From NCBI RefSeq assembly GCF_023822065.1, contig NZ_CP084930.1:2620001-2684000 (forward strand): a stretch of 64,000 nucleotides of DNA, given 5' to 3'. The notes beneath the pieces were generated by a model, which was not told where the DNA came from, did no database searches, and saw only the letters and a program-made list of their open reading frames with translations. Below are positions 35,857 to 60,329 of the stretch, piece after piece. The translations under genes and the position numbers were made by a program. Source of the DNA: Sphingomonas morindae (GTDB lineage Bacteria; Pseudomonadota; Alphaproteobacteria; Sphingomonadales; Sphingomonadaceae). Each line of letters starts with the position of its first letter. Position 1 is the stretch's first letter.

Positions 35857-35870
35857 TTGTCGGACAATAT
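35857..35870 (-). promoter_or_regulatory. Operator-like motif upstream of GH35
   Basis: TTGTCGGACAATAT lies 22-35 bases before the GH35 ATG. TTGT-N3-ACAA is a dyad fitting the GntR/FadR-type pattern TNGTNNNACNA. The same sequence with one change precedes GH51. Confidence 0.5.
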
Positions 35871-37424: not shown

Positions 37425-37472
37425 CGTCACTCCCCTTCACGATCGATCATCCCGGTCAGGTGATCGTGTCTG

Positions 37473-37486
37473 TTGTCGAACAATAT
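37473..37486 (-). promoter_or_regulatory. Operator-like motif upstream of GH51
   Basis: TTGTCGAACAATAT lies about 50 bases before the GH51 ATG. It is identical to the GH35 motif except for one base in the dyad centre. Both genes are thus probably controlled by one regulator not encoded beside them. Confidence 0.5.
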
Positions 37487-41014: not shown

Positions 41015-41031
41015 GGATACCGTATACGAAG
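41015..41031. promoter_or_regulatory. GntR-type operator, site 1 (deaminase operon)
   Basis: GGATACCGTATACGAAG, with the TATACGA core at 41,023-41,029 and the near-dyad CCGTATACGA, 25-40 bases before the deaminase ATG. One of five related sites in the region. Confidence 0.6.
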
Positions 41032-41054
41032 AGCGGGACCAAGGAGGACATCGC

Positions 41055-41978
41055 ATGACTCACGCCTCGGCGCTCTGGCAGGGCGTCTATCCCGCCGTGA
41101 CCACCCAATTCGCCGAAGATCTTTCCGTCGATCTCGGCGCCACGCAGAAGGTGCAGTCCGCGCTCGTCGATGATGGCGTGGACGGGCTCATCCTGCTCGG
41201 CACCTGTGGCGAGAATAATTCGCTCGAGCCCGACGAGAAGCGCGCGCTGCTGCGCGCCGGGGTGGAAGCGGTGGGCGGGCGCGTCCCGCTGGTCGCCGGC
41301 GTGTCCGAGATGACGACCGCGCGCGCGGTGCAGTTCGCCCGCGATGCCGAGGCGATCGGCGTGGACGCGCTGATGCTGTTGCCGGCGATGGTCTATGTGC
41401 CGCGCGGCGAGGAGCTGGCCGCGCATTTCCGCACCGTCGCCGAGGCGACCGCGCTGCCGATCATGCTGTACAACAATCCGCCCGCCTATCGGGTGAGCGT
41501 CGATTTCGCCACGCTCGATGCGCTGGCCGATCTCCCCAACATCGTCGCGGTCAAGGAAAGCGCGCCCGATCCGCGCCGCTTCACCGACATCATCAACCGC
41601 TTCGGCGACCGCTATACGGTGATGGCCGGGCTCGACGATATCGCGCTCGAGGGGCTGTTGCTCGGCGCCAGCGGCTGGGTCTCCGGTCTGACCAGCGCCT
41701 TCCCGCGCGAGTCGGTGCGGCTCGTCGCCGCCGCGCGCGAGGGACGCTGGGAGGAGGCGCGCGCCATCTATCGCTGGTTCATGCCGCTGCTCCATCTCGA
41801 TGCCGAGCATGATCTCGTCCAGTCGATCAAGCTGGCCGAGCAGATCATGGGCCGCGGCAGCGAGCGCGTGCGCATGCCGCGCCTGCCGCTCACGGGCGAG
41901 CGCCGGCGCGAGGTGACGCAATGGGTGGAGCAGTGCGCCGCCACCCAGCCCAGCCTCGCCCTGGCGGACGCCGCCTGA
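41055..41978 (+). CDS. DapA-family lyase, probable delta1-pyrroline-4-hydroxy-2-carboxylate deaminase
   Basis: A 307-residue class I aldolase-fold enzyme with the Schiff-base Lys167 in IVAVKESAPDPRRF, the catalytic Tyr139 in MLYNNPPAYRVS and GTCGENNSLEPDEK at the substrate carboxylate site. Family members include dihydrodipicolinate synthase, but the adjacent hydroxyproline epimerase and FAD dehydrogenase point to LhpC/HypD. That enzyme deaminates the cyclic imine from D-hydroxyproline to 2-oxoglutarate semialdehyde. AAGGAGG precedes the ATG. First gene of a three-gene operon with the epimerase and permease. Confidence 0.85.
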   Translation: MTHASALWQGVYPAVTTQFAEDLSVDLGATQKVQSALVDDGVDGLILLGTCGENNSLEPDEKRALLRAGVEAVGGRVPLVAGVSEMTTARAVQFARDAEAIGVDALMLLPAMVYVPRGEELAAHFRTVAEATALPIMLYNNPPAYRVSVDFATLDALADLPNIVAVKESAPDPRRFTDIINRFGDRYTVMAGLDDIALEGLLLGASGWVSGLTSAFPRESVRLVAAAREGRWEEARAIYRWFMPLLHLDAEHDLVQSIKLAEQIMGRGSERVRMPRLPLTGERRREVTQWVEQCAATQPSLALADAA

Positions 41979-41983
41979 TCGCG

Positions 41984-42982
41984 ATGCGCCACACCTTCTT
42001 CTGCATCGATGGTCACACCGCCGGCAATCCGGTGCGGCTGGTGGCGGGCGGCGCGCCGCTGCTGCGCGGCGCCTCGATGATCGAGCGGCGCGAGGATTTC
42101 CTCGCCCGCTTCGATTGGATCCGCACCGGCCTCTGCTTCGAGCCGCGCGGCCACGACATGATGTCGGGCGGCTTCCTCTACCCGCCGACGCGCGAGGATG
42201 CCGATTGCGGCATCCTCTTCATCGAGACGTCGGGCTGCCTGCCCATGTGCGGCCACGGCACCATCGGCATGGTCACCTTTGGGTTGGAAAACGGGCTGAT
42301 CACGCCGCGCACGCCGGGACGGCTGCGGATCGAGGTGCCGGCGGGGCTGATCGATGTCGACTATGGCGTGGAAGGCGCCCGCGTCGCCTGGGTGCGCATC
42401 CGCAACGTCCCCGCCTATCTGGCGGTGGAGGATGTGCGGATCGAGGTGCCGGGCTTCGGCCCGCTGCGCATCGATGTCGCCTATGGCGGCAATTATTACG
42501 CCATCGTCGAGCCACAGGGCCCGTATCAGGGGCTCGACGCGCTCGGCGCGGCGCGGCTGGTGGAGCTTAGCCGTACCGTGCGCGCGCTGATGCGGGCGGC
42601 GGTGGAGCCGGTGCATCCGCTCGACAATCGCATCCGCGGCGTCAGCCATGTCCTGTGGACCGATGCGCCGCGCGGCAATGGCGCCGACGGGCGCAACGCC
42701 GTCTTCTACGGCGAGCGCGCGATCGATCGCAGCCCGTGCGGCACCGGCACCTCGGCGCGCCTCGCGCATCTCCACGCCAAGGGCCGGCTGGCGGTGGGCG
42801 ATCGCTTCGTCCACGAAAGCTATATCGGAAGCCGCTTCATCGGCCGGGTGGAGGCCGAAACCATGGTGGGGGACCGGCCGGGCATCATCCCTTCGATCGA
42901 AGGATCGGCGGTGGCGACGGGGTTCAACACCATCTGGATCGATCGCGAGGATCCGTTCTGGGCGGGCTTCACCGTCGTCTGA
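41984..42982 (+). CDS. lhpA: 4-hydroxyproline 2-epimerase
   Basis: A 332-residue proline-racemase-family enzyme that interconverts trans-4-hydroxy-L-proline and cis-4-hydroxy-D-proline. Both catalytic cysteines are present, Cys89 (PMCGHGTIG) and Cys252 (SPCGTGTSA). This excludes the trans-3-hydroxyproline dehydratases, which lack the second cysteine, and the opening FFCIDGHTAGNPVRLV is typical of epimerases. It lies six bases behind the deaminase. It commits hydroxyproline to the D-isomer route. Confidence 0.93.
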   Translation: MRHTFFCIDGHTAGNPVRLVAGGAPLLRGASMIERREDFLARFDWIRTGLCFEPRGHDMMSGGFLYPPTREDADCGILFIETSGCLPMCGHGTIGMVTFGLENGLITPRTPGRLRIEVPAGLIDVDYGVEGARVAWVRIRNVPAYLAVEDVRIEVPGFGPLRIDVAYGGNYYAIVEPQGPYQGLDALGAARLVELSRTVRALMRAAVEPVHPLDNRIRGVSHVLWTDAPRGNGADGRNAVFYGERAIDRSPCGTGTSARLAHLHAKGRLAVGDRFVHESYIGSRFIGRVEAETMVGDRPGIIPSIEGSAVATGFNTIWIDREDPFWAGFTVV

Positions 42983-43011
42983 CGCGAAAGCATAACGAGA
43001 AGGGCAGGGGC

Positions 43012-44439
43012 ATGGGGATTTTCGGGCCGGTCAAGCCGATGGTGCGGAGCAAGGATCCGGACCCGGGGCACCGGCTCAAGCCGAGCCTCTCCTGGCCGCA
43101 TCTGATCGCGCTCGGCGTCGGCGCGATCGTCGGCACTGGCATCTATACGCTGATCGGGGTCGGCGCCGAGCGGGCGGGGCCGGCGGTGATCCTGTCCTTC
43201 GCCATCGCCGGCGCGGTGTGCGCCTGCGCGGCGCTCGCCTATGCCGAGCTGGCGACCATGATCCCCACCGCCGGCAGCGCCTATACCTATACCTATTCGG
43301 TGATCGGCGAGACGGCCGCCTGGGTGGTGGGATGGAGCCTGATCCTCGAATATTCGCTCGCCTGTTCCACCGTGGCGGTGGGATGGTCGGGCTATCTGGT
43401 CGGCTGGCTCCATGCCGCCGGCGTGGATCTGCCGCAGCTGCTGCTCGCGGGGCCGCACGGCGGCGGCCTCGTCAATCTGCCGGCGGTGCTGGTGGCGTTG
43501 GGCATCGCCGCGATGCTGATGGCGGGCACGCGCGAGAGCGCGACGCTCAACATCGTGCTGGTGGTGATCAAGCTGGTCGCGCTCGCCGCCTTCGTCGCGC
43601 TGGCGCTGCCCGGCTTCCAGGCCGGCCATTTCCAGCCCTTCATGCCCTATGGCTTTGGCAGCCACGCCGAGGCCGGCGGCACGCGCGGCGTGATGGCGGC
43701 GGCGGCGATCGTCTTCTTCGCCTTTTACGGCTTCGATGCGGTGGCGACCTCGGCCGAGGAGGCGCGCAACCCCGGACGCGATCTCACCATCGGCATCATT
43801 GGCTCGATGGCGGTGTGCACCACCATCTATATCCTCGTCGCCCTCACCGCGATCGGCGCGCTGCCCTTCACCGCGCTCGGCCAGTCTCCCGAGCCGCTGG
43901 CGTTGGTGCTGCGCGTGCTCGATCATCCGCTCGCCGCCTGGGCGGTCGCGGCGGCGGCGCTGCTCGCGCTGCCCTCGGTCATCCTCGTGATGATGTACGG
44001 GCAGAGCCGCATCTTCTTCGTCATGGCACGCGACGGGCTGCTGCCGCGGGCGCTGGCCCGCGTCTCGCCGCGCAGCGGCGCGCCGGTGCTGGTGACGGGG
44101 ATCACCGGGCTGTTCGTGGCCGCCGTCGCCGGCTTCTTCCGGCTCGACGAGATCGCCGAGCTTGCCAATGCCGGCACACTGATCGCCTTCATCGCGGTGG
44201 GCGGGTGCATGATGCTGCTGCGCCGCCGCGCGCCCGAGGCCGTGCGCGTCTTCCGCTGCCCCTGGCCCTATCTGGTCGGAACGCTCGCGATCCTCGGCTG
44301 CCTCTACCTGCTCATCAGCCTGCCCGAGGCGACGCTGCGCCGCTTCCTGATCTGGAACCTGATCGGGCTCGGCGTCTATTTCGCCTATAGCCGCCCGCGC
44401 AGCGCCTTGCTGCCCTCGGCCACGACGACCGGCGGCTGA
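43012..44439 (+). CDS. APC superfamily amino-acid permease
   Basis: A 475-residue permease with about 12 membrane helices. The first helix carries the substrate-binding VGAIVGTGIYTLIG typical of APC/CAT transporters, and helix 3 reads AYAELATMIPTAGSAYTYTYSVIGE. Placement behind deaminase and epimerase suggests import of hydroxyproline or related amino acids; the specificity is inferred. A GGGCAGGGG ribosome site lies just before the ATG. Its last 55 bases overlap the convergent GntR gene. Confidence 0.92.
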   Translation: MGIFGPVKPMVRSKDPDPGHRLKPSLSWPHLIALGVGAIVGTGIYTLIGVGAERAGPAVILSFAIAGAVCACAALAYAELATMIPTAGSAYTYTYSVIGETAAWVVGWSLILEYSLACSTVAVGWSGYLVGWLHAAGVDLPQLLLAGPHGGGLVNLPAVLVALGIAAMLMAGTRESATLNIVLVVIKLVALAAFVALALPGFQAGHFQPFMPYGFGSHAEAGGTRGVMAAAAIVFFAFYGFDAVATSAEEARNPGRDLTIGIIGSMAVCTTIYILVALTAIGALPFTALGQSPEPLALVLRVLDHPLAAWAVAAAALLALPSVILVMMYGQSRIFFVMARDGLLPRALARVSPRSGAPVLVTGITGLFVAAVAGFFRLDEIAELANAGTLIAFIAVGGCMMLLRRRAPEAVRVFRCPWPYLVGTLAILGCLYLLISLPEATLRRFLIWNLIGLGVYFAYSRPRSALLPSATTTGG

Positions 44440-45089
44440 CCATCGCCGGCGCCCAGCTGACGGCGCAGATCGGCCAGCGTGCCGCCGATATGTTCGGCGG
44501 CGAGCTGCTTGGCGCGGGCTTCGTCGCGCGCCAGCCACGCCTCGAGCAGCACCGCATGTTCCAGATGCGCGCGATCCTCGCGCCCGGCGGGCTCGAGATG
44601 CTTGAAGACATAGCGCTCGGAAAGGATCTGCAGCCGCTCGACCAGTTGCGAGGTCAGCACCCGTCCGCCCGGCCGGACCAGCGCCATGTGGAAATCGCGG
44701 TTGCGGGCGGCGACGAAATCGAGATGCGCATGCGCGGCCTCGTCCAGCGCCACCAGCGCGGCGCGGGCGGCCTCCTGCGCGGTCTCGTCGGCGGCGCGGG
44801 CGGCGGCGGCGACCGCCTCGGGCTCGATCGACAGGCGCAGCGCGAAAATCTCCTCGGCCTCGCCGGCCGACATGGCGCGCACGAAGAAGCCGCGATTGGC
44901 CTGGCTGACGAGCAGCCCCTCCTGTTCGAGCCGCGCCAACGCCTCGCGCAGCGGAATCTTGCTGACGCCCAGCTCGTTGGCGAGCGCATCCTGGCGGATG
45001 GCCTGCTCCACCGGCAGCTTTCCCGTCACGATCTGCTCGCGCACGATGTTGAAAATCTGCTCGGACAATGTGCGGACGACGATACTCAT
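44385..45089 (-). CDS. GntR/FadR-subfamily transcriptional regulator with FCD domain
   Basis: A 234-residue regulator. The N-terminal winged helix reads LSEQIFNIVREQIVTGKL...IRQDALANELGVSKIPLREALARLEQEGLL, and the C-terminal FCD ligand domain has FALRLSIEPEAVAAAA, a metal-site Asp/His helix (RNRDFHMALV) and HLEHAVLLEAWLARD. FCD proteins respond to small carboxylic acids. It diverges from the FAD dehydrogenase, and a perfect TCGTATACGA dyad lies between the genes. It is the prime candidate to bind the five related sites. The ATG was chosen over a GTG five codons upstream. Confidence 0.93.
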   Translation of the reverse strand: MSIVVRTLSEQIFNIVREQIVTGKLPVEQAIRQDALANELGVSKIPLREALARLEQEGLLVSQANRGFFVRAMSAGEAEEIFALRLSIEPEAVAAAARAADETAQEAARAALVALDEAAHAHLDFVAARNRDFHMALVRPGGRVLTSQLVERLQILSERYVFKHLEPAGREDRAHLEHAVLLEAWLARDEARAKQLAAEHIGGTLADLRRQLGAGDGQPPVVVAEGSKALRGRL

Positions 45090-45210
45090 TCGGTCGAGCT
45101 CCACCCCTCTGGCCCCCGCTGCCGCGCTCTATCCTCATGCGGCAGTGCAAAACTACCATAGATCAAATGCATCACGGAGAAAGTCCCGCCGAATGAAGAT
45201 TGCACCAGGC

Positions 45211-45226
45211 AATCGTATACGATACC
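45211..45226. promoter_or_regulatory. GntR-type operator, site 2 (regulator/dehydrogenase divergent region)
   Basis: AATCGTATACGATACC. ATCGTATACGAT (45,212-45,223) is a perfect 12-bp palindrome 23 bases before the dehydrogenase ATG. It is the best-conserved copy and fits the TNGT-ACNA pattern with a two-base centre, as known for UxuR/ExuR-like FCD regulators. Confidence 0.65.
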
Positions 45227-45245
45227 GCCGCTGCGGGAGGCAAGC

Positions 45246-46496
45246 ATGGCGCGGGCGGTGATCATCGGCGGGGGCGTGGTGGGGCTGGCGAGCGCGGTGG
45301 CGCTGGCCGATCAGCGATGGTCGGTGACGGTGATCGACGCCGATCCCGCGCGTCAGGCCGCCTCCTGGGGCAATGCCGGCCATATCGCGATCGAGCAGGG
45401 CGCGCCGCTCGCCTCGCGCGCGGCGCTGCGCTCGGCGCCGCGGCGTCTGTTCAGCCGGGGCGGGGCGCTGGCGCTGCCGCCGCGCCAGATCGGCCGCTGG
45501 CTGCCCTTCGGCCTGCGCCTTGCGCGCGCCGCCGCGCCGCGCCGGTTCGAAGCCGGCCAGGCCGCGCTCGCCCCGCTGCTCGCCGGCGCGATGCCCGCCT
45601 GGCACCGGCTCGCCGCCGGCCTGGATGCGCCCGATCTTGTGCGCGAGCACGGCCATATCGTCGCCTGGGAGAGCGCCGCGAGCGCGGCGGCGGGGCGGCG
45701 GGCCTGGGCGGCGGCGCCGATCGGCACCGCGCGCTTCCGCGCCTTCGACGCGGCCGAGCGCGCGGCGCTGGCACGGCTCGCGCCCGCCGGCTGCGCCGAT
45801 GCGATCCGCTTCACCAACACCGGCCAGATCCGCGATCTCGCGGCGCTCGCCGATGCGCTGACGGCGCGGCTGGCGGCGCGTGGCGGCCGGATCGTGCCGG
45901 GCCGCGCCACGCTGCGCCGCGTTTCCGGCGGGGCGGCGGAGGCGGTGCTGGAGGATGGCGCGACGCTTCGGGCGGACTTGATCCTCGTCGCCGCCGGCGT
46001 GCGCGCGCCCGCGCTGCTCGCCCCCTTCGGCCATCGGGCGCCGATCATCGCCGAGCGCGGCTACCATATCCGGGCCGACGCCGCGTCCTGGCCGGACGAT
46101 CTGCCGCCGATCGTGTTCGAGGATCGCGCGATGATCGTCACGCGCTATGCCGGCTGCGTCCAGGCGGCGAGCTTTGTCGAGCTAAGCGATGCGGACGCGC
46201 CCGCCGATCCCGCCAAATGGGCGCGGCTCGAGGCGCATGTCGCCGCGCTCGGCCTGCCGCTGCGTCCGCCCTTCACCCGCTGGATGGGTTCGCGGCCGAC
46301 CCTGCCCGATTATCTGCCCGCGATCGGCCGCAGCCGGCGCGCGCCCAATCTCCTCTATGCCTTCGGCCATCAGCATCTCGGCCTGACGCTGGCGCCGATC
46401 ACCGGCGAGATCGTCGCCGCGCTGGCCGCCGGCACGGCGCCGCCGGTGCCGCTCGCCCCGTTCGACATCGCCCGTTTCGAGAAGGATAGCGCATGA
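45246..46496 (+). CDS. FAD-dependent D-amino-acid dehydrogenase, probable D-hydroxyproline dehydrogenase
   Basis: A 416-residue DadA/DAO-family flavoprotein. The FAD-binding AVIIGGGVVGLASAVALA is at residues 4-21, with a DxxP-type acidic strand end (VTVIDADPARQAASWGNAGHI). The C-terminal MGSRPTLPDYLPAIGRS and LYAFGHQHLGLTLAPITGEIVAAL complete the flavin site. In the hydroxyproline pathway it would oxidise cis-4-hydroxy-D-proline to the pyrroline, the step between epimerase and deaminase; a single-subunit enzyme like rhizobial HypO. Its stop overlaps the following ATG. Confidence 0.87.
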   Translation: MARAVIIGGGVVGLASAVALADQRWSVTVIDADPARQAASWGNAGHIAIEQGAPLASRAALRSAPRRLFSRGGALALPPRQIGRWLPFGLRLARAAAPRRFEAGQAALAPLLAGAMPAWHRLAAGLDAPDLVREHGHIVAWESAASAAAGRRAWAAAPIGTARFRAFDAAERAALARLAPAGCADAIRFTNTGQIRDLAALADALTARLAARGGRIVPGRATLRRVSGGAAEAVLEDGATLRADLILVAAGVRAPALLAPFGHRAPIIAERGYHIRADAASWPDDLPPIVFEDRAMIVTRYAGCVQAASFVELSDADAPADPAKWARLEAHVAALGLPLRPPFTRWMGSRPTLPDYLPAIGRSRRAPNLLYAFGHQHLGLTLAPITGEIVAALAAGTAPPVPLAPFDIARFEKDSA

Positions 46497-47686
46497 GCAT
46501 CGGAGGTTCGACCGCTGCGGCGGAGCTGGCGGCGCTCGCCCTCTGGGCCAGGCCGGCCCCGCCGATCACGCCGGCGGAGCGGGCGGAGCGCCTCGCCCGC
46601 GCCCGGGCGCTGATGGCGGAATGCGACGCCGGGGCGCTGCTCGTGCAGGCCGGCCCCTCGCTCCGCTATTTCACTGGGCTGAGCTGGGGGCCGAGCGAGC
46701 GGCCGGTGGCGATGCTGCTGCTGCCCACCGGCACGCCGATCCTGGTCTGCCCGCGGTTCGAGCAGGGCAGCGTCGCGGCCGAGCTGGCGATCGAGATGGA
46801 TCTCCGCCTCTGGGAGGAGGATGAGGATCCTCACCGGCTCGTCGCTGATGCGCTGGCCGGCGCGGGCGTGACGCGGCTGGCGGTGGATCCGGCCCTGTCC
46901 TTCCAGATGGCGGGGCGGCTCGGCGCGGCGGCGCCGGGGGTGCGGCTCGGCGATGGCGCGGCGGTGATCGATGGCTGCCGGATGATCAAATCGCCCGCCG
47001 AGCTGGCCCTAATGCGTCAGGCCAAGGCGATGACGCTGGAGGTCCAGCGCCGCGCCGCGCGCATTCTGGCGCCGGGCATCACCAATATCGAGGTCGCGCG
47101 CTTCATCGATGAAGCGCACCGCGCGCTGGGCGCTTCGGGCGCGAGCTTCTGCATCGTCCAGTTCGGCCGCGCGACTGCCTTTCCGCACGGCCTGCCCGGG
47201 CCCCAGCCGCTCGCCGAGGGCGACCTGGTGCTGATCGACACGGGCTGCACGATCGAAGGCTATCACTCGGACATCACGCGCACCTATGGCTTCGGCGAAC
47301 CGGGCGCCGAGGCGCGCGCCATCTGGGAGGTGGAAAAGGCCGCGCAGGCCGCCGCCTTCGCCGCCGTCCGCCCCGGCGTCCCTTGCGAGGCGGTGGACGC
47401 GGCCGCGCGCGCCGTGCTGGAGGCGGCGGGGCTCGGTCCGGCCTATCGGCTGCCGGGATTGCCCCACCGCACCGGCCACGGCATCGGGCTGGCGATCCAC
47501 GAGCCCGCCTATCTGGTGCGCGGCGATCGCACCCCGCTGGCGCCCGGCATGTGCTTCTCGAACGAACCGATGATCGTGGTGCCCGAGCGGTTCGGCATCC
47601 GGCTCGAGGATCATTTCCACGTCACCGATCACGGCGCGGCCTGGTTCACCGAACCCCAGCCGGCGATCGACCGGCCCTTCGGCTGA
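46493..47686 (+). CDS. M24B metallopeptidase (Xaa-Pro peptidase family)
   Basis: A 397-residue pita-bread-fold enzyme, probably an Xaa-Pro aminopeptidase or prolidase. All five metal ligands are present: Asp249 (LVLIDTGC), Asp260 (GYHSDITRTYGFG), His329 (PHRTGHGIGLAIHEP), Glu358 (CFSNEPMIV) and Glu372 (GIRLEDHFHVT). An N-terminal creatinase domain covers residues 34-165. It has no signal and works in the cytoplasm. Co-translation with the D-amino-acid dehydrogenase suggests it frees (hydroxy)proline from imported peptides. Confidence 0.93.
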   Translation: MSIGGSTAAAELAALALWARPAPPITPAERAERLARARALMAECDAGALLVQAGPSLRYFTGLSWGPSERPVAMLLLPTGTPILVCPRFEQGSVAAELAIEMDLRLWEEDEDPHRLVADALAGAGVTRLAVDPALSFQMAGRLGAAAPGVRLGDGAAVIDGCRMIKSPAELALMRQAKAMTLEVQRRAARILAPGITNIEVARFIDEAHRALGASGASFCIVQFGRATAFPHGLPGPQPLAEGDLVLIDTGCTIEGYHSDITRTYGFGEPGAEARAIWEVEKAAQAAAFAAVRPGVPCEAVDAAARAVLEAAGLGPAYRLPGLPHRTGHGIGLAIHEPAYLVRGDRTPLAPGMCFSNEPMIVVPERFGIRLEDHFHVTDHGAAWFTEPQPAIDRPFG

Positions 47687-47708
47687 AGCGCCGGCCGGCG
47701 TCGGATCG

Positions 47709-49466: not shown

Positions 49467-49498
49467 TGCCCCATACCCCACAATATGTCACTTACCAT

Positions 49499-49516
49499 GC
49501 ATCGTATATCGTATCC
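49499..49516. promoter_or_regulatory. GntR-type operator, site 3 (DUF885/GH127 divergent region)
   Basis: GCATCGTATATCGTATCC: two direct copies of ATCGTAT, containing TCGTATA, the reverse of the TATACGA core. It lies 25 bases before the GH127 start and 33 bases before the DUF885 start, so it could control both. Confidence 0.55.
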
Positions 49517-49540
49517 TCAACTCGGCGCAAGGAGAGCCAG

Positions 49541-51946: not shown

Positions 51947-51953
51947 TGCGGTG

Positions 51954-54398
51954 TCAGCCGAGGCCGGCGAGCGTGAGCAGCGCCGGCTTCAGCCCCTCGG
52001 CGCGCGCTTCCAGCGCGATCGCGCCGCCGCCAGGGCCGGCCTGCACCAGCGCCATGCACAGCCCGTTGAAGGTGGAGCGGCGGGTGGCGTGATCCGCCTC
52101 GAGGCTGCGCGGATCGCCATTGCCGACGCCGAGCAGGCGGGCATCGCCGTGAAGTGCGAACGAGACCAGGCGATCCGCCTGCGGCACCTCGACGCCCGCG
52201 CGATCGACGAGCGCGACGCGCACCACCGCCACCGCATCCGCCGCGAGCCGGCGGCGATCGCTGCTGAGCGAGAGGGCGGCGGGCGCCCCGGCCGTATCGC
52301 GCCGCGCCCGCGCCACCGGCCGCCCCGCGCGATAGCCCCGCGCCTCCAGCCGTCCGGGTGCGTAGGGCACCGTCCAGGCGGCGTGGCCGAGCCGCTCGAC
52401 CGCGCGTCGCCCCAGGCTGCGCCCGTTGAGCCGCAGCTCCACCTCGTCGCAATTGCTGTGCGCCCACACCTCGATCGGCGCGCCCTCGCGGCCCGGCCAG
52501 GTCCAGTGCGGGAGCAGGTGGAGCACCGTCTCCCCGCTCCACCAGGCGCGGTAATAATGGAAATTGTCCTTGGGAAAGCCGCAGCTGTCGAGCTGCCCAA
52601 AATGCGAGGCATTTTCCGGCCAGCGCTCGAACGGGGTCGGCTCGCCGCGATAATCGAAGCCGGTCCATACGAAGCCGCCGGCGAGGAAGGGGCGCGCGGC
52701 GTAGAAGCGCAGCCACTGCTCGGCGGTGCTGGCCCAGCTCGGAAACTCCCGATCATAGGCGGGCACCAGCCCGGCGGCATCGTCGCGCGCATAGACGCCC
52801 CGCGTCGTCACCGTGCTGCCGGTTTCGGTGCCGATCATCGGCATGGCCGGGTTGGCGGCATGGAAGGCATCGATCTCGTCGAGATGATAGTTGCAGCCCA
52901 TCACGTCGAGAATGGCGGCGGCGCCCTGTCCGAGCTTGCCGTTCAGCGCCTCGGTGACGGGGCGACTATCGTCGAGCGCGCGGATATGCCGCTTCATCGT
53001 CGCCGCGATCCGCGCGCCGGTGGGCGTGCCGCGATGGATTTCCTCGTTGCCGATCCCCCAGAGGAACACGCACGCATGGCCGCGCGCCTGGCGCACCATC
53101 CGTTCCAGCTGGGACAGGCCCTCCGCATTGCTGCTCATCTGCCGCGTCTCGCACAGCATCAGCAGCCCCAGCCGGTCGCACGCCTCGAGCACGGCCGGCG
53201 GCGGCGGATGGTGGGTGGAGCGATAGGCGTTGCAGCCCATCGCCTTGAGCTGCTCGATTCGCCAGGCGTGCAGGCTGTCCGGCACCGCGAAGCCGACGCC
53301 GGCATGATCCTGGTGGTTGCAGCTTCCCTGGATGCGCAGCGGCTGGCCGTTGAGGAAGAAGCCGCGATCGGGATCGAAGCGCGCGAAGCGGATGCCGAAG
53401 GCGCGCTCCTGGCGATCGACCACTTGGCCGCCGATCAGCACCTCGGTGATCAGCCGATGCAGCTGCGGCGTGGCGGGCGACCACAAGGCCGGGGCGCGCA
53501 GGTCGAGCCGCTGCTCGATCGTCCGCCCGCTCCATTCCGCCAGATCGAGCGGCGCCTCGAGCCGGGCGAGCCGCCCGCCATCGGGCGCGATCAGGGTGGA
53601 GCGCAGCCGCGCGGCGCAGGCGGGGCCATGATTGTCGATCTCGGTGGCGATGCGCAGCGCGGCGCCCGCCGGCACGGGATCGGCGCGCACCCAGGCGCCC
53701 CAGCGGCGGACATGGGCGGCATGGCTCTTTACCAGCCGCACCGCGCGGTAGAGGCCCGCCCCTTCGTAGGACCAGGCCTCGCCCAGGCTGGCGTCGCACC
53801 GGACCACCAGCCAATTTTCCTCGCCCGGCCGCGCGACATCGGTGATGTCGACGGTGAAGGGCGCATAGCCGCTCTCGTTGGAGGCGACGACGAAGCCGTT
53901 GAGGATGACGAGGCAGTCGCGCCCGACGCCATCGAATTCCAGCCGCAGCCGGCGGCCGGCATCGGCCGCGGCGATGGGCAGCGCGCGCCGGTACCAGCCG
54001 ATGCTCGTCTCCGGCCAGCGTCGACCGACCGGCTTGAAGCCCTGGAAGGCGCCGCTCCGGTCCGCCTCCGAGCCCGGCGGGCCGAAGGGCATAAAGGGAA
54101 GATCCACCGCCCAATCGTGCGGCAGCCGCACCGTCGCCCAATCGCGCGCGTCGAATTCGGCGCCGGCGACGGGCGTGCCAATCTCGCCCGATTTGGCGTA
54201 GCTGTCATGGCTCAGCCCGAAGCCGAAATCGCGCGCCGGATCGGCGGCGTGGCCGAGATGGAAGCGCCAGCCCGCGTCCAGCGCCACCGTCTCGCGCGGC
54301 GCCGGCGCCGTGGCGGCGAGCGGGGCGGCATGCGCCGCGCTTAGCGCCGCCGCCGCTCCGCCCGCACCGATGGCGCCGCGCCGCGTGAGACGGATCAC
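51954..54398 (-). CDS. GH2 beta-galactosidase-like glycosidase, Tat-type signal
   Basis: An 814-residue GH2 enzyme: sugar-binding jelly-roll (residues 40-210), immunoglobulin-like domain, TIM barrel with acid/base Glu in FLWGIGNEEIHRG and nucleophile Glu in MIGTETGST, then a DUF4982 and a further beta-sandwich. It most resembles exo-beta-galactosidases; beta-glucuronidase or beta-mannosidase activity cannot be excluded. LTRRGAIGAGGAAAALS at the N-terminus looks like a Tat signal. The GTG start is 13 bases after the TonB-receptor stop, so the two form an operon. Confidence 0.92.
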   Translation of the reverse strand: MIRLTRRGAIGAGGAAAALSAAHAAPLAATAPAPRETVALDAGWRFHLGHAADPARDFGFGLSHDSYAKSGEIGTPVAGAEFDARDWATVRLPHDWAVDLPFMPFGPPGSEADRSGAFQGFKPVGRRWPETSIGWYRRALPIAAADAGRRLRLEFDGVGRDCLVILNGFVVASNESGYAPFTVDITDVARPGEENWLVVRCDASLGEAWSYEGAGLYRAVRLVKSHAAHVRRWGAWVRADPVPAGAALRIATEIDNHGPACAARLRSTLIAPDGGRLARLEAPLDLAEWSGRTIEQRLDLRAPALWSPATPQLHRLITEVLIGGQVVDRQERAFGIRFARFDPDRGFFLNGQPLRIQGSCNHQDHAGVGFAVPDSLHAWRIEQLKAMGCNAYRSTHHPPPPAVLEACDRLGLLMLCETRQMSSNAEGLSQLERMVRQARGHACVFLWGIGNEEIHRGTPTGARIAATMKRHIRALDDSRPVTEALNGKLGQGAAAILDVMGCNYHLDEIDAFHAANPAMPMIGTETGSTVTTRGVYARDDAAGLVPAYDREFPSWASTAEQWLRFYAARPFLAGGFVWTGFDYRGEPTPFERWPENASHFGQLDSCGFPKDNFHYYRAWWSGETVLHLLPHWTWPGREGAPIEVWAHSNCDEVELRLNGRSLGRRAVERLGHAAWTVPYAPGRLEARGYRAGRPVARARRDTAGAPAALSLSSDRRRLAADAVAVVRVALVDRAGVEVPQADRLVSFALHGDARLLGVGNGDPRSLEADHATRRSTFNGLCMALVQAGPGGGAIALEARAEGLKPALLTLAGLG

Positions 54399-54411
54399 GC
54401 CGCGCGGTCCG

Positions 54412-57366
54412 TCAGAAGCTCGCCGTCAGGCCGGCGAACAGCGTGCGCCCGGCGACATCGTAGATGCCGGGATAGGTATTGCCGTTGCCGAAGGCCGAAA
54501 GGATGCCGGCGGCGATGGCGGGCGGATCGCGATCGAGCAGATTGTTGGCGCCGACGCGCAGCGTAAGCCGCTTCGCCACATCCACCGTCGCCGCGAGATC
54601 GAAATAATTATAGGCCTTGATCCGCCGGTTCACCACGCTCGGCGTGCCGGCGAGGAAGCTGTTGTCGGACAGGCTGGAGAGCGTCACGCGGCCATAATAG
54701 CGCCAGTTGAGCGACAGGCTGGCATGGCTCCACGGCGTCTCCCAGGTGGTGCGCAGGCTGTGCCGCCACGCCGGCGTCGGCTGGCCGCAGCTATAGCCGA
54801 ACCGGCCCTTGCAGTCATAGCTGCCCAGCCCCGGCAGCGGCGAGGCGACGCGCTCCTGCACCCAGGTGCCGACCAGATTGAGGTTCAGCTTGCCGAGCTG
54901 ACCGAGCGGCGCGGTGTAATCCGCCGTCACGTCGATCCCGGCGGTGCGCAGGAAGCCGGTGTTGAGCGTGGTGGAGACGACATAGCCCGAATTGCCGAAC
55001 AGCGCGCCGGAGCGGGGATCGCGGTGGAACAGGCCGCAATAGAAGGGATCGCCCGTCTGCTGGCACTGGTTGATCGTCAGGCTGGGATCGATGCTGTTGA
55101 TATAGTCCGAAACCTTGATCCGGAAATAATCGACCGAGAGCGAGAAGCCGCGCATCATGCGCGGCGTCAGCACCATGCCCACCGTATAGGTATCGCCCTG
55201 CTCCGGCTTGAGCGCGCGATTGCCGCCGGCCTGGGCCGAGCAGGTATCGGCGGGGCAGGGGATGATCGAGCCATATTGCGTCGCTGACACGCCGGTGAGC
55301 GCGCAGGCCGCCTGGCTCGCCTGCGGCGTGGCGCCCGCGCAGGGATCCTGCGCCGACACATTGCCGACCGACTGGCTGGCGAACAATTCGCCGATATTGG
55401 GCGCGCGGATGGCGCGGTTGTAGCTGCCGCGCAGCCGCAGATCGTGGATCGGCGCCCAGCTCAGCTCGGCCTTGTAGGTCCAGACATTGTAGGACGAGCC
55501 GAAGCCCGTGGAGCCTTGCTTGTTCTTGTACGCCGAATAGCGGAAGCCGCCATTCACCGTCAGCGTCTCCGCGAAGGGCTTGTTCGCGAGCAGCGGCACC
55601 TCGAGCTCGCCAAAGGCCTCGTTGACGGTGATCGAGCCATCCGAATTGGTGGCACCGCCCTGCTGCGCGATCTCGTCGGCGAAGAAGTTGAGCGTCTCGC
55701 GTCGATGCTCGCCGCCGAGCACCAGGCTCGCGCCCTGTTCGGCCCACGGGCTCTTGAGGCCGAACGTGCCGAGATCGCTGGTGATCGCGCCCGTCACGGT
55801 GGTGAGCGTGTTGCGCGACCGGGTATGGCTGGGCGAATAGAGATAGGTCGCCTGGTCCGCGGTCAGGCCGTTGGCCTGGAAGACGTTGATCGGCACGCAG
55901 GCGGGATCGCTGCCGTCCAGCACCGAGCGGCAGGTGAGCGTGCCGTTATTGTTGACGATATCGAGCGCCCGCTGCGCCTTCACCGCGTCGACATTGTTCA
56001 GATAGGTCTCGTCATAGCGGACGAGCGCGCGCATCGCGTTGATGTCGTAGCTGAAGCCATGGCCGAGATCGCCGCGCGCGCCGGCGCTGTAGCGCCAGTC
56101 CTCGTGGCGCAGATCGTCGCGCCGGGGCAGGGTGCCGTTGCCGCCGAGACGATAGCCGATCAGCGTGTCGCGCGTCTCGCTGGTGCCGGCGGCGGTCCCG
56201 CACAGGGCGGAGAGCTGCTGCGCGCTCATCAGCGGCTGGTTGCAGGCGAGGGTGAAGGGCGAGCCCAGGAACAGGGCCGACGGCGCCACCTGCGAGAAGG
56301 TGCGGTCGTTCATATACATGAAGCTGCCATAGAGCTTCAGCGCGCTGCTGACGTCGAAATGGGCGAAGGCGCCGGCGGTGTAGCGATTGTCGGAGCGCTG
56401 GAAGTAGTTCAGCGGCGCATAATTATAGGTGTAGGCGCTGGTATAGGGCACCCAGGTCTTGCTGCCGTCGGCGGCGTTGGTCAGCGCCTTGCCCTGGTTC
56501 GGTCCGGCCAGCGGCGTGAAGCTGCCATAGGGCGTGTTGCTGGAGCCGCCGCAATTGAGCGCGGTGCCGGCGGCGTCGGCGGCCTGGAGCGCGCAGGCCG
56601 AAACATCGCGGTTGGACTGGATGATGGGATCGAAGTGGCGATAGCCGCCGAAGATCGAGATATTGCCGCGGCCCCCGGCGAAATTCTTGCCGGCCGAGAC
56701 ATTCACATCCTGCTTGGCGCCATCCACCACCGAACGCGGCGCGGTCTGATAGCCCTGCGCGGTGACGATGTCCTGCAGCCGGCCGGCGCCATTCTCGTGC
56801 TGGGCGACGCTGTTCTGCACATCGACGCGCACGCCCTCGAGATTGTTGCGCAGCACGAAATTGACGACGCCCGCGAGCGCATCCGACCCGTAGACGGCGG
56901 ACGCGCCGCCGGTGAGCACGTCCACCCGATCGATCAGCGCCGCCGGCACGAAGTTGAGGTCGACCGCCTGCTGCGGCAGCATGCGCTGGCCGTTGATCAG
57001 GATGAGCGTGCGATTGGCGCCGAGATTGCGCAGATTGATGTTGGCGGTGCCGTCCGAGCCGTTCGAGACATTCTCGTTCGCGTCCGCCGTCACCTGCGGC
57101 AACCGCGCCAGCACGCCCTCGACGGTGGTGGCGCCCTGATACTGGATCTCCTGCGAGCCGACGATCGTCACCGGGCTGTTGCTCTGGAGATTGGGCCGCC
57201 GGATACGGGTTCCGGTGACGACGATCGATTGCGGTTCGCCGCTCGCCGCGGTGGTGGGATCGGCCGCCGGTTCCCCGGCGGCGGTCACCTGCGCGTAGGC
57301 GGTGGAAGAGAGCAGGCCCGCAACGGCCATGCTGATTGCGATCGGGAGTTTGCGCGAGCCAACCAT
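54412..57366 (-). CDS. TonB-dependent outer-membrane receptor
   Basis: A 984-residue receptor with a signal peptide (ISMAVAGLLSSTAYAQ), a TonB box-like SIVVTGTRIRRPN, a plug domain (VEGVLARLPQVTADANEN to LTGGASAVYGSDALAGVVNFVLRN) and a long beta-barrel ending in Phe (GRTLFAGLTASF). No STN domain is present. The type (Asn/Gly-rich, RNLG plug) is that used by sphingomonads and xanthomonads to import oligosaccharides or peptides. Given the neighbours, arabinosylated hydroxyproline oligomers are a reasonable ligand. It is upstream of GH2 in one operon. Confidence 0.95.
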   Translation of the reverse strand: MVGSRKLPIAISMAVAGLLSSTAYAQVTAAGEPAADPTTAASGEPQSIVVTGTRIRRPNLQSNSPVTIVGSQEIQYQGATTVEGVLARLPQVTADANENVSNGSDGTANINLRNLGANRTLILINGQRMLPQQAVDLNFVPAALIDRVDVLTGGASAVYGSDALAGVVNFVLRNNLEGVRVDVQNSVAQHENGAGRLQDIVTAQGYQTAPRSVVDGAKQDVNVSAGKNFAGGRGNISIFGGYRHFDPIIQSNRDVSACALQAADAAGTALNCGGSSNTPYGSFTPLAGPNQGKALTNAADGSKTWVPYTSAYTYNYAPLNYFQRSDNRYTAGAFAHFDVSSALKLYGSFMYMNDRTFSQVAPSALFLGSPFTLACNQPLMSAQQLSALCGTAAGTSETRDTLIGYRLGGNGTLPRRDDLRHEDWRYSAGARGDLGHGFSYDINAMRALVRYDETYLNNVDAVKAQRALDIVNNNGTLTCRSVLDGSDPACVPINVFQANGLTADQATYLYSPSHTRSRNTLTTVTGAITSDLGTFGLKSPWAEQGASLVLGGEHRRETLNFFADEIAQQGGATNSDGSITVNEAFGELEVPLLANKPFAETLTVNGGFRYSAYKNKQGSTGFGSSYNVWTYKAELSWAPIHDLRLRGSYNRAIRAPNIGELFASQSVGNVSAQDPCAGATPQASQAACALTGVSATQYGSIIPCPADTCSAQAGGNRALKPEQGDTYTVGMVLTPRMMRGFSLSVDYFRIKVSDYINSIDPSLTINQCQQTGDPFYCGLFHRDPRSGALFGNSGYVVSTTLNTGFLRTAGIDVTADYTAPLGQLGKLNLNLVGTWVQERVASPLPGLGSYDCKGRFGYSCGQPTPAWRHSLRTTWETPWSHASLSLNWRYYGRVTLSSLSDNSFLAGTPSVVNRRIKAYNYFDLAATVDVAKRLTLRVGANNLLDRDPPAIAAGILSAFGNGNTYPGIYDVAGRTLFAGLTASF

Positions 57367-57432
57367 CGAGTGCCCCTTTTGACTCTATTCTTGTAGGGGA
57401 ATTGCAACATGAGTGGCTGAGAGTGTCAAATA

Positions 57433-57446
57433 TTTTATACGATATG
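57433..57446 (-). promoter_or_regulatory. GntR-type operator, site 4 (TonB receptor operon)
   Basis: TTTATACGATATG region with the TATACGA core at 57,436-57,442, about 70 bases before the receptor ATG. The surrounding 60 bases are notably A+T-rich and should include the promoter. Confidence 0.5.
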
Positions 57447-57555
57447 CGGAGCTCGCAATTTTCGGCCGTTTACAGCCGCTTCGGTGGCCATGCGGGGCGC
57501 AGGACGGGGCCGGGTGATGCCCGTCCCGCCAGGAAACTGATTCGAGCGCGGCCCC

Positions 57556-60276
57556 TCAGCCGAGGATCAGCGCCGCTTCGGTTTCGTCCGAATTCAATGG
57601 TATGAGCATGGCACCGCGGTCGCGCGCATAGGCCCTTTCGGTGCGGTAGCCGGAGCCGCCGGGCGCGGTTTCGATCCGGAGCCGCGCCACCGGCGCGTGC
57701 GGCGTGGCCGGCGCAAGCCCGATCCGCACCGCGCCGCTGGCCGGATCATGATCGAAGCGGGTAAAGCGCCCCGCCTCCAGCTCCAGCCAAAGCCGCTGCG
57801 GCGCGAGGAAGAGGCGGGTGCGGGCGGAATCGCGCGGCGCGACATGGATCGTCCCGCCGCGCATCTCCAGCGTTCCGCCAAAGGCGAGCCAGCCGAACGT
57901 CTCGTGCCGGATCACATAGGTGGCGGTGGCGAAGGCGTGGCCGAAAAAGCTCATGCCATAATCGCCGGAATAGCCGTCGAAGCGTAGCATGTCGGGATAG
58001 GCGTGGAAGGCGCAGGCGCCGAAGCCCTGCTCGTCGATATTGGTCAGCCCGCCCATCAGCCCGCCATAGGCGACCCGCAGCAGATGCACGTCCTCGGGCG
58101 CGCGCCGGAAACTGTCGAACAGCGGCAGCGCGTTGAGCGTCGATCCATAATGATGCAGCTGGCGCTCCAGCCGCGCGGTCTTGCCGGCGAAGAGAAAATC
58201 CCAGTAGCGGCGCGCGCTGCCATTATAGCCCCAGTGCGGGATCAGCGGATCATAGGCGAGGATCACCTCCCGGGTCAGCGCCGCCTTATCGGCGAAGCCG
58301 AAATGCTGCATCCAGGCATAGACTTCCTCTTGGCCGGTGGAGTCCCACGGCATCTCGCTGCCGAAAGGATAGGCCTCGGCGCGCCAATGCTCGGCGCGGG
58401 CGCGCATCGCCGCCTCCAGCGCATCGCCCTCGGCATGCCATTGCTCGCGCCGCAGATCGGCGAGCAGCGCCACGAACACATCGCCTTCCATCTGCCCGAA
58501 GCCGGCATATTCCGGCGCGAGGCGCGGCATGGCGAGCGCGGTGCGCGCCGCCCGCGCGAGATACCAGCGCCAGTCATGCGCCTTGACCAGCCCCACATGG
58601 GTGCGCGCCAGCCGGTACAGCACCCATTGCGCGGCGGTGACATGGACATAGTTGAAGGACCGCACCACCGACTGGGCGGCATCGCGCTTCCAGCTCGACC
58701 AGCTGGTCCAGTCGATCGCCGGATCATAGCGGTCCGCCTGGGCGGGATCGTAGAAGAAGAGGCTCTTGCGCACGCCATCGCGCAGCGGTCCATCCGGCAC
58801 CTGCAGCCGCGTCTCGATCGTCTCGACATGGAACCGCTCAAACTGGGCGATCTGCTGCGGATCGGGTGCGATCAGCTGCTTCATGATCGCCGCCAGCCAG
58901 CTGCCGGCGCCGCCCTCGTCGCTCAGCCCCGCGATCCACACCCGCTTGTCCTGGGTGACGATGGCATCGCGCTCGCGATCATAGCTCATGATCGAGGGGC
59001 TGCGGCCGAAGCCGTCGTCCGCCCGATCGTACCACTGCCGCGTGAAGAGGAAGCGGCCCAGATCGGAGACGGTGTCGGTGGCGGCCTTGGTGCGGAAATA
59101 GTGGATCGCATGGCGCCGCCCATCGGCGTAGCGCAGCAGCAGCCGCGCGCGGCCGAAGCCGTGCCCGGTCACGCGGTAGCGAAGCCAGCCGGGCGCGGCG
59201 GGGGCGGCGAGCGGGGTCAGCGTCAGCGCATCAGCCGGGCTGATCTCCATGGCCGCCACGGCGGCGGGCGCGGCAAGGAAGAGATCGGCCGGACAGTCCG
59301 CCGGCAGCACATAGCCGGGCAGGCCCACGGCCAGCGGCCGGCCTTCGCCGCGCAGGCGGGTCTCGATCGCGCGCACGCCCGGCGCCAGCACGAAGCGCAG
59401 GCCGAAGCGGCGGCGCGCGCCGGGTTCGAGGCGGATCTGGCTGGGCGGGTTCCACTGCTCGACGCCGCGCCACTCCTGCTCGGCAAAGCCGGCGCTCGCC
59501 ACCAGCCAGCGGTAAAAGCCCTCGAAGGTGAGGCTGCGCGGACGCCGATCCTCGAGCAGGCGCGGCGCCTCAGGCGGGCCGGCCGCGATCGGCGCCCAAT
59601 TTTCCAGCGGCGTGCCCGCCTCCGGCAGCACCAGCAGCACCGGGCCGCCGCCGCCCAGCGGCGCCACCTGCACATGGCCGGCGTCGAGCCCCATATAGGC
59701 CTCGGTGAAGCTCGCCTCGTGATGCGCCTGGTTCAGGTCGCGCCCGGTCAGGCGATTGTCGAAGGGCAGGGCGAAGCCGAGCCCGCCCAGCTCAATCGCC
59801 GTCGCGGCGCGGTTGACGATGGTGACGCGCAGCACCAGCGCCTCGCCCTCCACCCGCCAGCGCCGCTCCACGCGCAGCGGCAGAGCGTCTGGAAGGCTCG
59901 GCGCGAGATCGGCCGCCGCCAGATCGCCGGGCCGCAAGGGCAGCGGGCGGACCGGGCGGCGATCAAAGGCGGTGGACGCATCCTGCCAGGGGGCGCCCGG
60001 CTGGCGCCAGCGCAGATCGATATCGCCGAGCGCATAGAAGCCCGGCTGCGGATCGGCGGGCCCCTTGGCGGCGAAATCGAAGCCGGGCCGGGCTTCGGCC
60101 TCGAGCCCGGTCAGCAGCTGCGAGGTGGCGCCGAGGCGCAGCCGGAACGGGCCGGCGACATGGCCCGGCAATGCTGCTGGCGCCGCCGCCGCGCCGGACG
60201 GTAGGCGCGGCATCAGCCCGACCATGGCGCTTCCGCCCAGAAACAGCCGCCGGCTCTGCCCGCGCTTACCCGCCAT
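57556..60276 (-). CDS. DUF5695-like large secreted protein, possible glycosidase
   Basis: A 906-residue protein with a Tat-like N-terminus (QSRRLFLGGSAMVG). The first 350 residues are beta-rich; the rest is helical with long Trp/Tyr/His/Asp-rich stretches such as DWTSWSSWKRDAAQ, GSEMPWDSTGQEEVYAW, IPHWGYNGSARRYWDF and FDGYSGDYGMSFFGHAFATATYV. That looks like an (alpha/alpha)6 toroid with an acidic cleft, as in several glycosidase and lyase families. I match it to DUF5695 from memory; activity is unknown. GGGGAGG precedes the ATG, and an operator copy lies directly upstream. Confidence 0.75.
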   Translation of the reverse strand: MAGKRGQSRRLFLGGSAMVGLMPRLPSGAAAAPAALPGHVAGPFRLRLGATSQLLTGLEAEARPGFDFAAKGPADPQPGFYALGDIDLRWRQPGAPWQDASTAFDRRPVRPLPLRPGDLAAADLAPSLPDALPLRVERRWRVEGEALVLRVTIVNRAATAIELGGLGFALPFDNRLTGRDLNQAHHEASFTEAYMGLDAGHVQVAPLGGGGPVLLVLPEAGTPLENWAPIAAGPPEAPRLLEDRRPRSLTFEGFYRWLVASAGFAEQEWRGVEQWNPPSQIRLEPGARRRFGLRFVLAPGVRAIETRLRGEGRPLAVGLPGYVLPADCPADLFLAAPAAVAAMEISPADALTLTPLAAPAAPGWLRYRVTGHGFGRARLLLRYADGRRHAIHYFRTKAATDTVSDLGRFLFTRQWYDRADDGFGRSPSIMSYDRERDAIVTQDKRVWIAGLSDEGGAGSWLAAIMKQLIAPDPQQIAQFERFHVETIETRLQVPDGPLRDGVRKSLFFYDPAQADRYDPAIDWTSWSSWKRDAAQSVVRSFNYVHVTAAQWVLYRLARTHVGLVKAHDWRWYLARAARTALAMPRLAPEYAGFGQMEGDVFVALLADLRREQWHAEGDALEAAMRARAEHWRAEAYPFGSEMPWDSTGQEEVYAWMQHFGFADKAALTREVILAYDPLIPHWGYNGSARRYWDFLFAGKTARLERQLHHYGSTLNALPLFDSFRRAPEDVHLLRVAYGGLMGGLTNIDEQGFGACAFHAYPDMLRFDGYSGDYGMSFFGHAFATATYVIRHETFGWLAFGGTLEMRGGTIHVAPRDSARTRLFLAPQRLWLELEAGRFTRFDHDPASGAVRIGLAPATPHAPVARLRIETAPGGSGYRTERAYARDRGAMLIPLNSDETEAALILG

Positions 60277-60290
60277 CACCGCCTCCCCTG

Positions 60291-60309
60291 ATCGAATATC
60301 GTATTCTAT
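60291..60309 (-). promoter_or_regulatory. GntR-type operator, site 5 (DUF5695-like gene)
   Basis: TCGAATATCGTATTC region: GAATA-TCG-TATTC is a perfect dyad (60,294-60,306) 18 bases before the ATG. On the reverse strand it reads ATACGATATTCGA, a variant of the TATACGA sites. Confidence 0.5.
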
Positions 60310-60329
60310 TCGGAGCAGGCGCCGCCTGT

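Follow-up and report, generated by a model that had tools for sequence, protein, structure and literature searches.

We analysed a window of 64 kb (contig C1:2620001-2684000) from the near-complete genome of Sphingomonas morindae (Sphingomonadaceae; label G000), in which genes of hydroxyproline (Hyp) catabolism lie directly beside genes for a GH146 beta-L-arabinofuranosidase, a GH2 enzyme, a TonB-dependent receptor, a DUF885 peptidase and a DUF5695 protein. There is strong in silico support for one regulon comprising both groups of genes, from (i) their co-location in 15 genera, (ii) one putative operator preceding all units and (iii) a single clade of GH146 proteins, in agreement with an original prediction, made from the letters of this DNA, that had proposed one regulon for hydroxyproline catabolism and the removal of plant-type arabinosides. 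We consider it probable that this is a HypR-type regulon for using hydroxyproline-rich glycoproteins (HRGPs), be they extensins, arabinogalactan proteins (AGPs) or green-algal wall proteins. HRGPs are major proteins of the plant cell wall and root surface; to our knowledge, bacterial consumption of their protein backbone has been little described.

A shared putative operator

The hydroxyproline and glycosidase genes occupy both strands and fall into five or more transcription units, which rules out a single-operon arrangement. An 18-bp palindrome, TATATCGTATACGATATA, was recognised from intergenic sequences as the motif common to these units. An unbiased count over the upstream regions of about 40 loci ranked the 8-mer ATCGTATA first; 78 of its 96 occurrences, in 36 loci, fall upstream, where upstream regions make up 6.6% of the DNA. 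To guard against circularity, we trained an operator matrix (cut-off 11) solely on the regions upstream of deaminase and D-amino-acid dehydrogenase-like (DAO family) genes of other genomes, leaving the window out. Sites were found upstream of genes for GH146 (24/32), the TonB receptor (10/14), DUF5695 (8/16), DUF885 (14/41) and an Ldh2-family dehydrogenase (8/18), against a control rate of about 0.2% (random non-upstream stretches, about 0–0.3% for those families). Genes internal to operons carried no operator (APC permease 0/26, GH2 0/5).

Within the window, the five best matrix positions coincide with the five unit starts, and the next best position scores 7.4. The best site, operator 4 (AATATTTTATACGATATG, 57429-57446; score 23.7), precedes the receptor–GH2 unit and also ranks first among the genome pattern matches listed. 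It is followed by operator 2 (GCAATCGTATACGATACC, 45209-45226; 18.7) before the DAO–M24 peptidase unit, operator 5 (AATATCGTATTCTATTCG, 60295-60312; 16.3) before DUF5695 and operator 1 (GATACCGTATACGAAGAG, 41016-41033; 15.7, fourth best in the 64 kb) before the deaminase–epimerase–permease unit. Operator 3 (49498-49522, beginning TGCATCGTATATCGTATCC) lies between DUF885 and GH146, consists of two overlapping half-sites and is fifth best in the 64 kb, with 10.2 at 49505. A consensus search allowing up to three mismatches recovered only two of the five window sites, and a degenerate-pattern search of the whole host genome yielded 22 matches versus 24 in the control, that is, no excess. Once the genome matches listed were scored, the top five comprised four window sites and one site before a DUF5695 paralogue. 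This paralogue (C1:3064212-3066929, L163:4212-6929; 905 aa), a distant relative located 383 kb away among sugar-epimerase genes, has its operator 36 bp before the start.

GH146 genes distant from hydroxyproline genes (genomes G262 and G297) retain the operator. It also precedes GH146 on four plasmids outside the training set, from Sphingomonas sp. R1 (tomato rhizosphere), S. parapaucimobilis (Chinese cabbage), S. hankookensis and Novosphingobium sp. RL4 (rhubarb rhizosphere), and on two of these it stands before the deaminase gene as well. Of 33 other loci that hold hydroxyproline genes, 28 also encode an FCD/GntR regulator; because of this constant company and the known biology of HypR, we propose the FCD protein as the likely binder of the predicted operators. 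The FCD consensus TNGTNNNACNA was rejected as regulon motif, as it matched only before the nearby GH35 and GH51 genes and at two positions inside genes, and at none of the hydroxyproline units.

Conserved linkage and a single GH146 clade

We surveyed 397 Sphingomonadaceae genomes, where locus counts include close relatives within genera. The epimerase above its profile cut-off was present in 47 genomes, a GH146-type protein in 37 and both in 31 (Fisher odds ratio 111, p 2e-28, uncorrected for relatedness). In 24 of these 31 genomes, representing 15 genera, the two genes lie at most 13 kb apart, so that the neighbourhood sought in related genomes was found; several of the remaining seven have the genes near contig ends. 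Gene order is reshuffled from genus to genus, which argues for many rounds of reassembly of the neighbourhood with its content preserved. GH146 occurs in 27 of the 33 other loci with hydroxyproline genes. It shares a strand with the D-hydroxyproline dehydrogenase gene at a gap of 90–124 bp in G229 and two Steroidobacteraceae, and elsewhere adjoins Ldh2, gamma-glutamyl transpeptidase or DUF885 on the same strand, at gaps mostly below 150 bp. Further recurrent members are the Ldh2-family dehydrogenase, an S9 dipeptidyl peptidase, gamma-glutamyl transpeptidase, an amidohydrolase and an aldehyde dehydrogenase.

The same set appears around independently found DUF5695 genes in named genomes of Sphingomonas, Caulobacter, Steroidobacter, Peristeroidobacter and Alteromonas confluentis; the closest relative of the host DUF5695 is that of Sphingomonas populi (65%). 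A class-wide draw of 369 gammaproteobacterial genomes gave one relevant genome, G573, in which about 21 kb on one strand encode an epimerase-like protein, DAO, deaminase, aldehyde dehydrogenase, M24 peptidase, permease, S9 peptidase, DUF885, receptor, amidohydrolase and GH146. Two long genes flanking this cluster, considered as GH121/GH43 candidates, proved to be glutamate synthase subunits. A diverged set occurs in an acidobacterial metagenome-assembled genome (L070), where DUF5695, two FCD regulators, a GH146-like protein (40%), a deaminase and a proline-racemase-family protein are clustered. The set is also present on plasmids of plant-associated Sphingomonas. On plasmid pR1a of the tomato-rhizosphere isolate Sphingomonas sp. 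R1 (L182), DUF5695-DPPIV-GH146-Ldh-DUF885 adjoin genes for a rhamnogalacturonan lyase, an acetylesterase and a rhamnose mutarotase. In Shewanella mangrovi (L061, 9141-12646), an FCD regulator directly adjoins DUF5695 with no GH146 within the 22 kb read, a possible DUF5695-only form of the regulon.

The arabinofuranosidase of the window (49541-51946, forward strand; PF07944, GH127M and DUF6805; GTG start with a ribosome-binding site) had been labelled GH127, a label that we correct to GH146. Among solved relatives, similarity is highest to BT0349 (5opj, 493 bits), followed by Bll3HypBA1 (186 bits) and the GH127 enzyme 4qjy (95 bits); BT0349, Bll3HypBA1, Bll4HypBA1 and Xanthomonas XeHypBA1 are members of GH146 (PMC10850190). 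The zinc/cysteine active site of clan GH-P is intact, with Glu-x-Cys in EHCNSYN, Cys-Cys in WCCVGTG and the acid/base Glu in NADREYFF, and we predict hydrolysis of beta-L-arabinofuranosides. The relabelling helps the original prediction because the family includes enzymes active on Araf-beta-hydroxyproline, Bll4HypBA1 and XeHypBA1, which cut arabinose bound to hydroxyproline (PMC10850190, PMC6085000); family membership allows this substrate without proving it. The regulon's GH146 proteins group in a single clade (33 rows, SH-aLRT 99 by a quick tree method). Members from Alteromonas, Steroidobacter and Caulobacter are nested among those of Sphingomonadaceae, which suggests transfer of the gene set. 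Apart from one extra copy in G052, the remaining PF07944 proteins encoded by the same genomes branch outside this clade. A second PF07944 protein of the host (668 aa, C1:3330191-3331327, CCTGTG motif) is likewise placed outside.

Gene content and proposed pathway

Gene identities were assigned by Pfam and NCBIfam profile scans of the open reading frames (ORFs) of the window, and every gene listed in the original prediction was present at its place. The first unit, on the forward strand, comprises a HypD-like Delta1-pyrroline-4-hydroxy-2-carboxylate deaminase of the DHDPS family (41055-41978; PF00701, E 3e-57; YNNPP and VKES motifs), a 4-hydroxyproline 2-epimerase (41984-42982) and an APC-family amino-acid permease (about 43012-44439, start picked from the sequence; PF13520/PF00324), presumed to take up hydroxyproline. 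The epimerase, predicted as a two-cysteine enzyme, scores 542 bits against the curated model NF010578 (cut-off 376) and keeps both catalytic cysteines, Cys89 and Cys252 (MCGHGT, SPCGTG). The HypR-like GntR/FCD regulator, the presumed operator binder, is encoded on the reverse strand (44385-45104; PF00392 and PF07729). The D-hydroxyproline dehydrogenase gene (D-amino-acid dehydrogenase-like, DAO family; 45246-46496, forward; PF01266, E 4e-45) overlaps at its stop by four bases with the start of the gene for an M24 Xaa-Pro peptidase, presumed to cleave Xaa-Hyp (46493-47686, forward; PF00557 and PF01321). Pfam thus upheld the predicted dehydrogenase, deaminase and FCD regulator, each of which is present. 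On the reverse strand follow the predicted DUF885 peptidase with signal peptide (47709-about 49466; PF05960, E 1e-157; HESAPGH motif), the GH2 beta-galactosidase-like enzyme (51954-54398; GH2 domains, DUF4982 and C5), whose gene begins 14 bases past that of the TonB-dependent outer-membrane receptor (54412-57366; PF00593 and PF07715), and the DUF5695 protein with a twin-arginine-type signal (57556-60276). The last, predicted as DUF5695-like, is a true full-length member of the family (PF18951, 1113 bits).

Read by eye, the N-termini of GH146 (RRAWLKG), DUF5695 (RRLFLGG) and GH2 (TRRGAIG) carry twin-arginine-like signals and that of DUF885 a Sec-like signal, and on this basis the periplasm is where all four would act. 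No gene for 2-oxoglutarate-semialdehyde dehydrogenase, the enzyme that completes the pathway, turned up among those scanned at the locus. An aldehyde dehydrogenase homologue with 60% identity to a cluster-borne one of another genome is encoded elsewhere in the host (C1:2350355-2351869); a search of the 12 kb read around it gave no operator.

In the pathway that we infer, from substrate and enzyme specificities to regulator–operator pairing and repression, the TonB receptor would carry glycopeptides into the periplasm, where secreted GH146 would take beta-L-arabinofuranose off hydroxyproline, and DUF5695, acting on glycan in a PL27-like manner, and GH2 would strip further sugars. The bared Hyp-rich peptides would be cut by DUF885, in relatives also by the S9 dipeptidyl peptidase, gamma-glutamyl transpeptidase and prolidases, and the products imported through the APC permease. 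Hydroxyproline freed by the M24 peptidase would then pass through epimerase, D-Hyp dehydrogenase and deaminase, giving 2-oxoglutarate semialdehyde. Until hydroxyproline or a derivative appears, all units would be repressed by the FCD/GntR protein via TATATCGTATACGATATA. The outcome is a specific regulon whose operator can be tested, with hydroxyproline as the likely inducer and GH146 and DUF885 given a role in a common pathway.

Substrate, alternatives and known systems

We built an AlphaFold model of DUF5695 from 25 sequences (pLDDT 79.8, pTM 0.84). Its best match is BACCELL_00875 (5no8), an L-rhamnose-alpha-1,4-D-glucuronate lyase of PL27 (Foldseek E 2e-26, target TM 0.77; Z 24.1 over 622/669 residues), and the next structural matches are single domains at Z 16. 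Both proteins have the two-domain fold of a beta-sandwich and an (alpha/alpha)6-barrel, whereas DUF5695 differs in sequence (15% identity; weak profile match to PL27, E 4e-4) and has an additional C-terminal beta domain. Fold and profile match, together with the activity of PL27 on gum arabic, an AGP (PMC8377490), indicate that DUF5695 is most likely a remote PL27 relative and a glycan-cleaving enzyme for HRGPs, be it lyase or hydrolase. This provides a fold and a first functional lead for a family of unknown function.

The PL27-like fold suggests that AGPs may be targeted besides extensin or in its place; AGP, extensin and algal HRGP are all candidate substrates. That AGP is the main target rather than extensin-type Hyp-arabinosides, with GH146 removing beta-Araf and DUF5695 charged caps, is a variant compatible with the HRGP regulon, to which we assign a real but lesser probability. 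The nearest solved structures to GH2 are beta-galactosidases of the same family (7cwd, 4ypj), and the GH146 enzyme Bll3HypBA1 cuts beta-1,3-Araf of AGP (PMC10850190), both in line with this variant. Yet GH146 and peptidases are retained at many linked loci that lack DUF5695 and GH2, a content that suits simple Hyp-arabinosides.

A regulon for proline/hydroxyproline peptides of collagen or gelatin type, with the glycosidases as accessories, appears unlikely. Known HypR regulons do include collagenases and prolidases: those of Alteromonadales are predicted to have both upstream, together with TonB receptors (PMC5343134), and the link between HypR and collagenase has been shown in Streptomyces (PMC6608401). 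Among the scanned genes, however, there is no collagenase, the beta-L-arabinofuranosidase and the PL27-like protein have no known collagen target, and GH146 accompanies the hydroxyproline genes in 27 of 33 other loci. A chance neighbourhood of a hydroxyproline operon and an independent plant-polysaccharide (arabinan/arabinogalactan) locus is highly improbable: sugar genes of another regulon, GH35 and GH51 with their different palindrome TTGTCG(G/A)ACAA, do adjoin just upstream, and on pR1a the set adjoins a rhamnogalacturonan locus, but the linkage recurs in 15 genera with altered order, one operator precedes both halves even where they are far apart, and the linkage and operator statistics (uncorrected for relatedness) contradict it.

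Several observations weigh against an HRGP regulon of the proposed form. Operator 3, which lies between GH146 and DUF885, is the weakest of the five and at 10.2 lies under the cut-off; G573 and the acidobacterial locus have no operator or a diverged one, L070 showing no strong operator before GH146. Many linked loci lack DUF5695, GH2 and the receptor. GH146 includes an arabinan enzyme (BT0349) and an enzyme for beta-1,3-Araf of AGP (Bll3HypBA1; PMC10850190), so that the family alone does not settle the substrate. In Xanthomonas and Bifidobacterium, GH121/GH43 are needed before GH127/GH146 acts on Ara3-/Ara4-Hyp, and no such partners were present among the locus ORFs scanned with Pfam, a scan that did not extend to a genome-wide GH121 model search. 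The GH51 enzyme (35874-37430), which has a different putative operator, could help to remove outer arabinoses.

The proposed HRGP regulon resembles the proteobacterial HypR regulon (Sinorhizobium meliloti hyp genes; Leyn et al. 2016, PMC5343134) in its GntR/FCD repressor, epimerase, dehydrogenase, deaminase, prolidases and TonB receptor, and the Ldh2-family gene of the present loci may be compared with the malate-dehydrogenase-like HypS. Whereas the upstream arm in Alteromonadales is proteolytic (collagenases), the present one consists of GH146, GH2, DUF5695 and DUF885, appears suited to glycosylated plant-type HRGPs and is unmentioned in that study (PMC5343134). A search of the open-access literature revealed no paper joining hydroxyproline epimerase or HypR with arabinofuranosidase, HRGP or glycoside hydrolase; therefore, we take the plant-glycoprotein arm to be new relative to known HypR regulons. 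The XeHypBA1/BA2/AA system of Xanthomonas euvesicatoria likewise has a proteobacterial GH146 (XeHypBA1) that releases arabinose from Ara-Hyp, but its partners are GH121 and GH43, encoded in an operon under HrpX, and a link to hydroxyproline catabolism is not described (PMC6085000). Bifidobacterium longum employs clan GH-P enzymes on HRGP beta-L-arabinofuranosides (HypBA1/HypBA2/HypAA and the GH146 enzymes Bll3/Bll4HypBA1); there, the sugar is the described nutrient, and neither a hydroxyproline pathway nor a TonB receptor is described with it (PMC10850190).

The Xanthomonas study raises the question of why HypBA-type enzymes are present in a bacterium that cannot use L-arabinose (PMC6085000). 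The present regulon offers an answer: sugar removal may serve to give access to the amino acid. We tentatively extend this, with slightly more doubt than conviction, to the combined proposal that DUF5695, of which the host has two paralogues preceded by the shared operator, represents a new family of polysaccharide lyases or glycosidases dedicated to HRGP glycans, and that the set is a horizontally spread HRGP-utilisation system whose main reward is hydroxyproline, not arabinose. If hydroxyproline is the main reward, this would account for plant-associated bacteria unable to use L-arabinose keeping Hyp-arabinosidases. Plasmid carriage in rhizosphere and cabbage isolates hints at an ecological role on plants.

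Two features lie upstream of the hydroxyproline genes in the window. GH35 (32998-35835) and GH51, both on the reverse strand, each have the near-perfect palindrome just upstream, at 35857-35867 and 37473-37483, and probably represent a separate sugar regulon adjoining the hydroxyproline one. Between about 28000 and 32000, G+C falls to 0.57–0.63 versus 70% around; this stretch, which includes an ABC transporter ORF (30095-31885) and ORFs lacking any Pfam match, is possibly foreign DNA.

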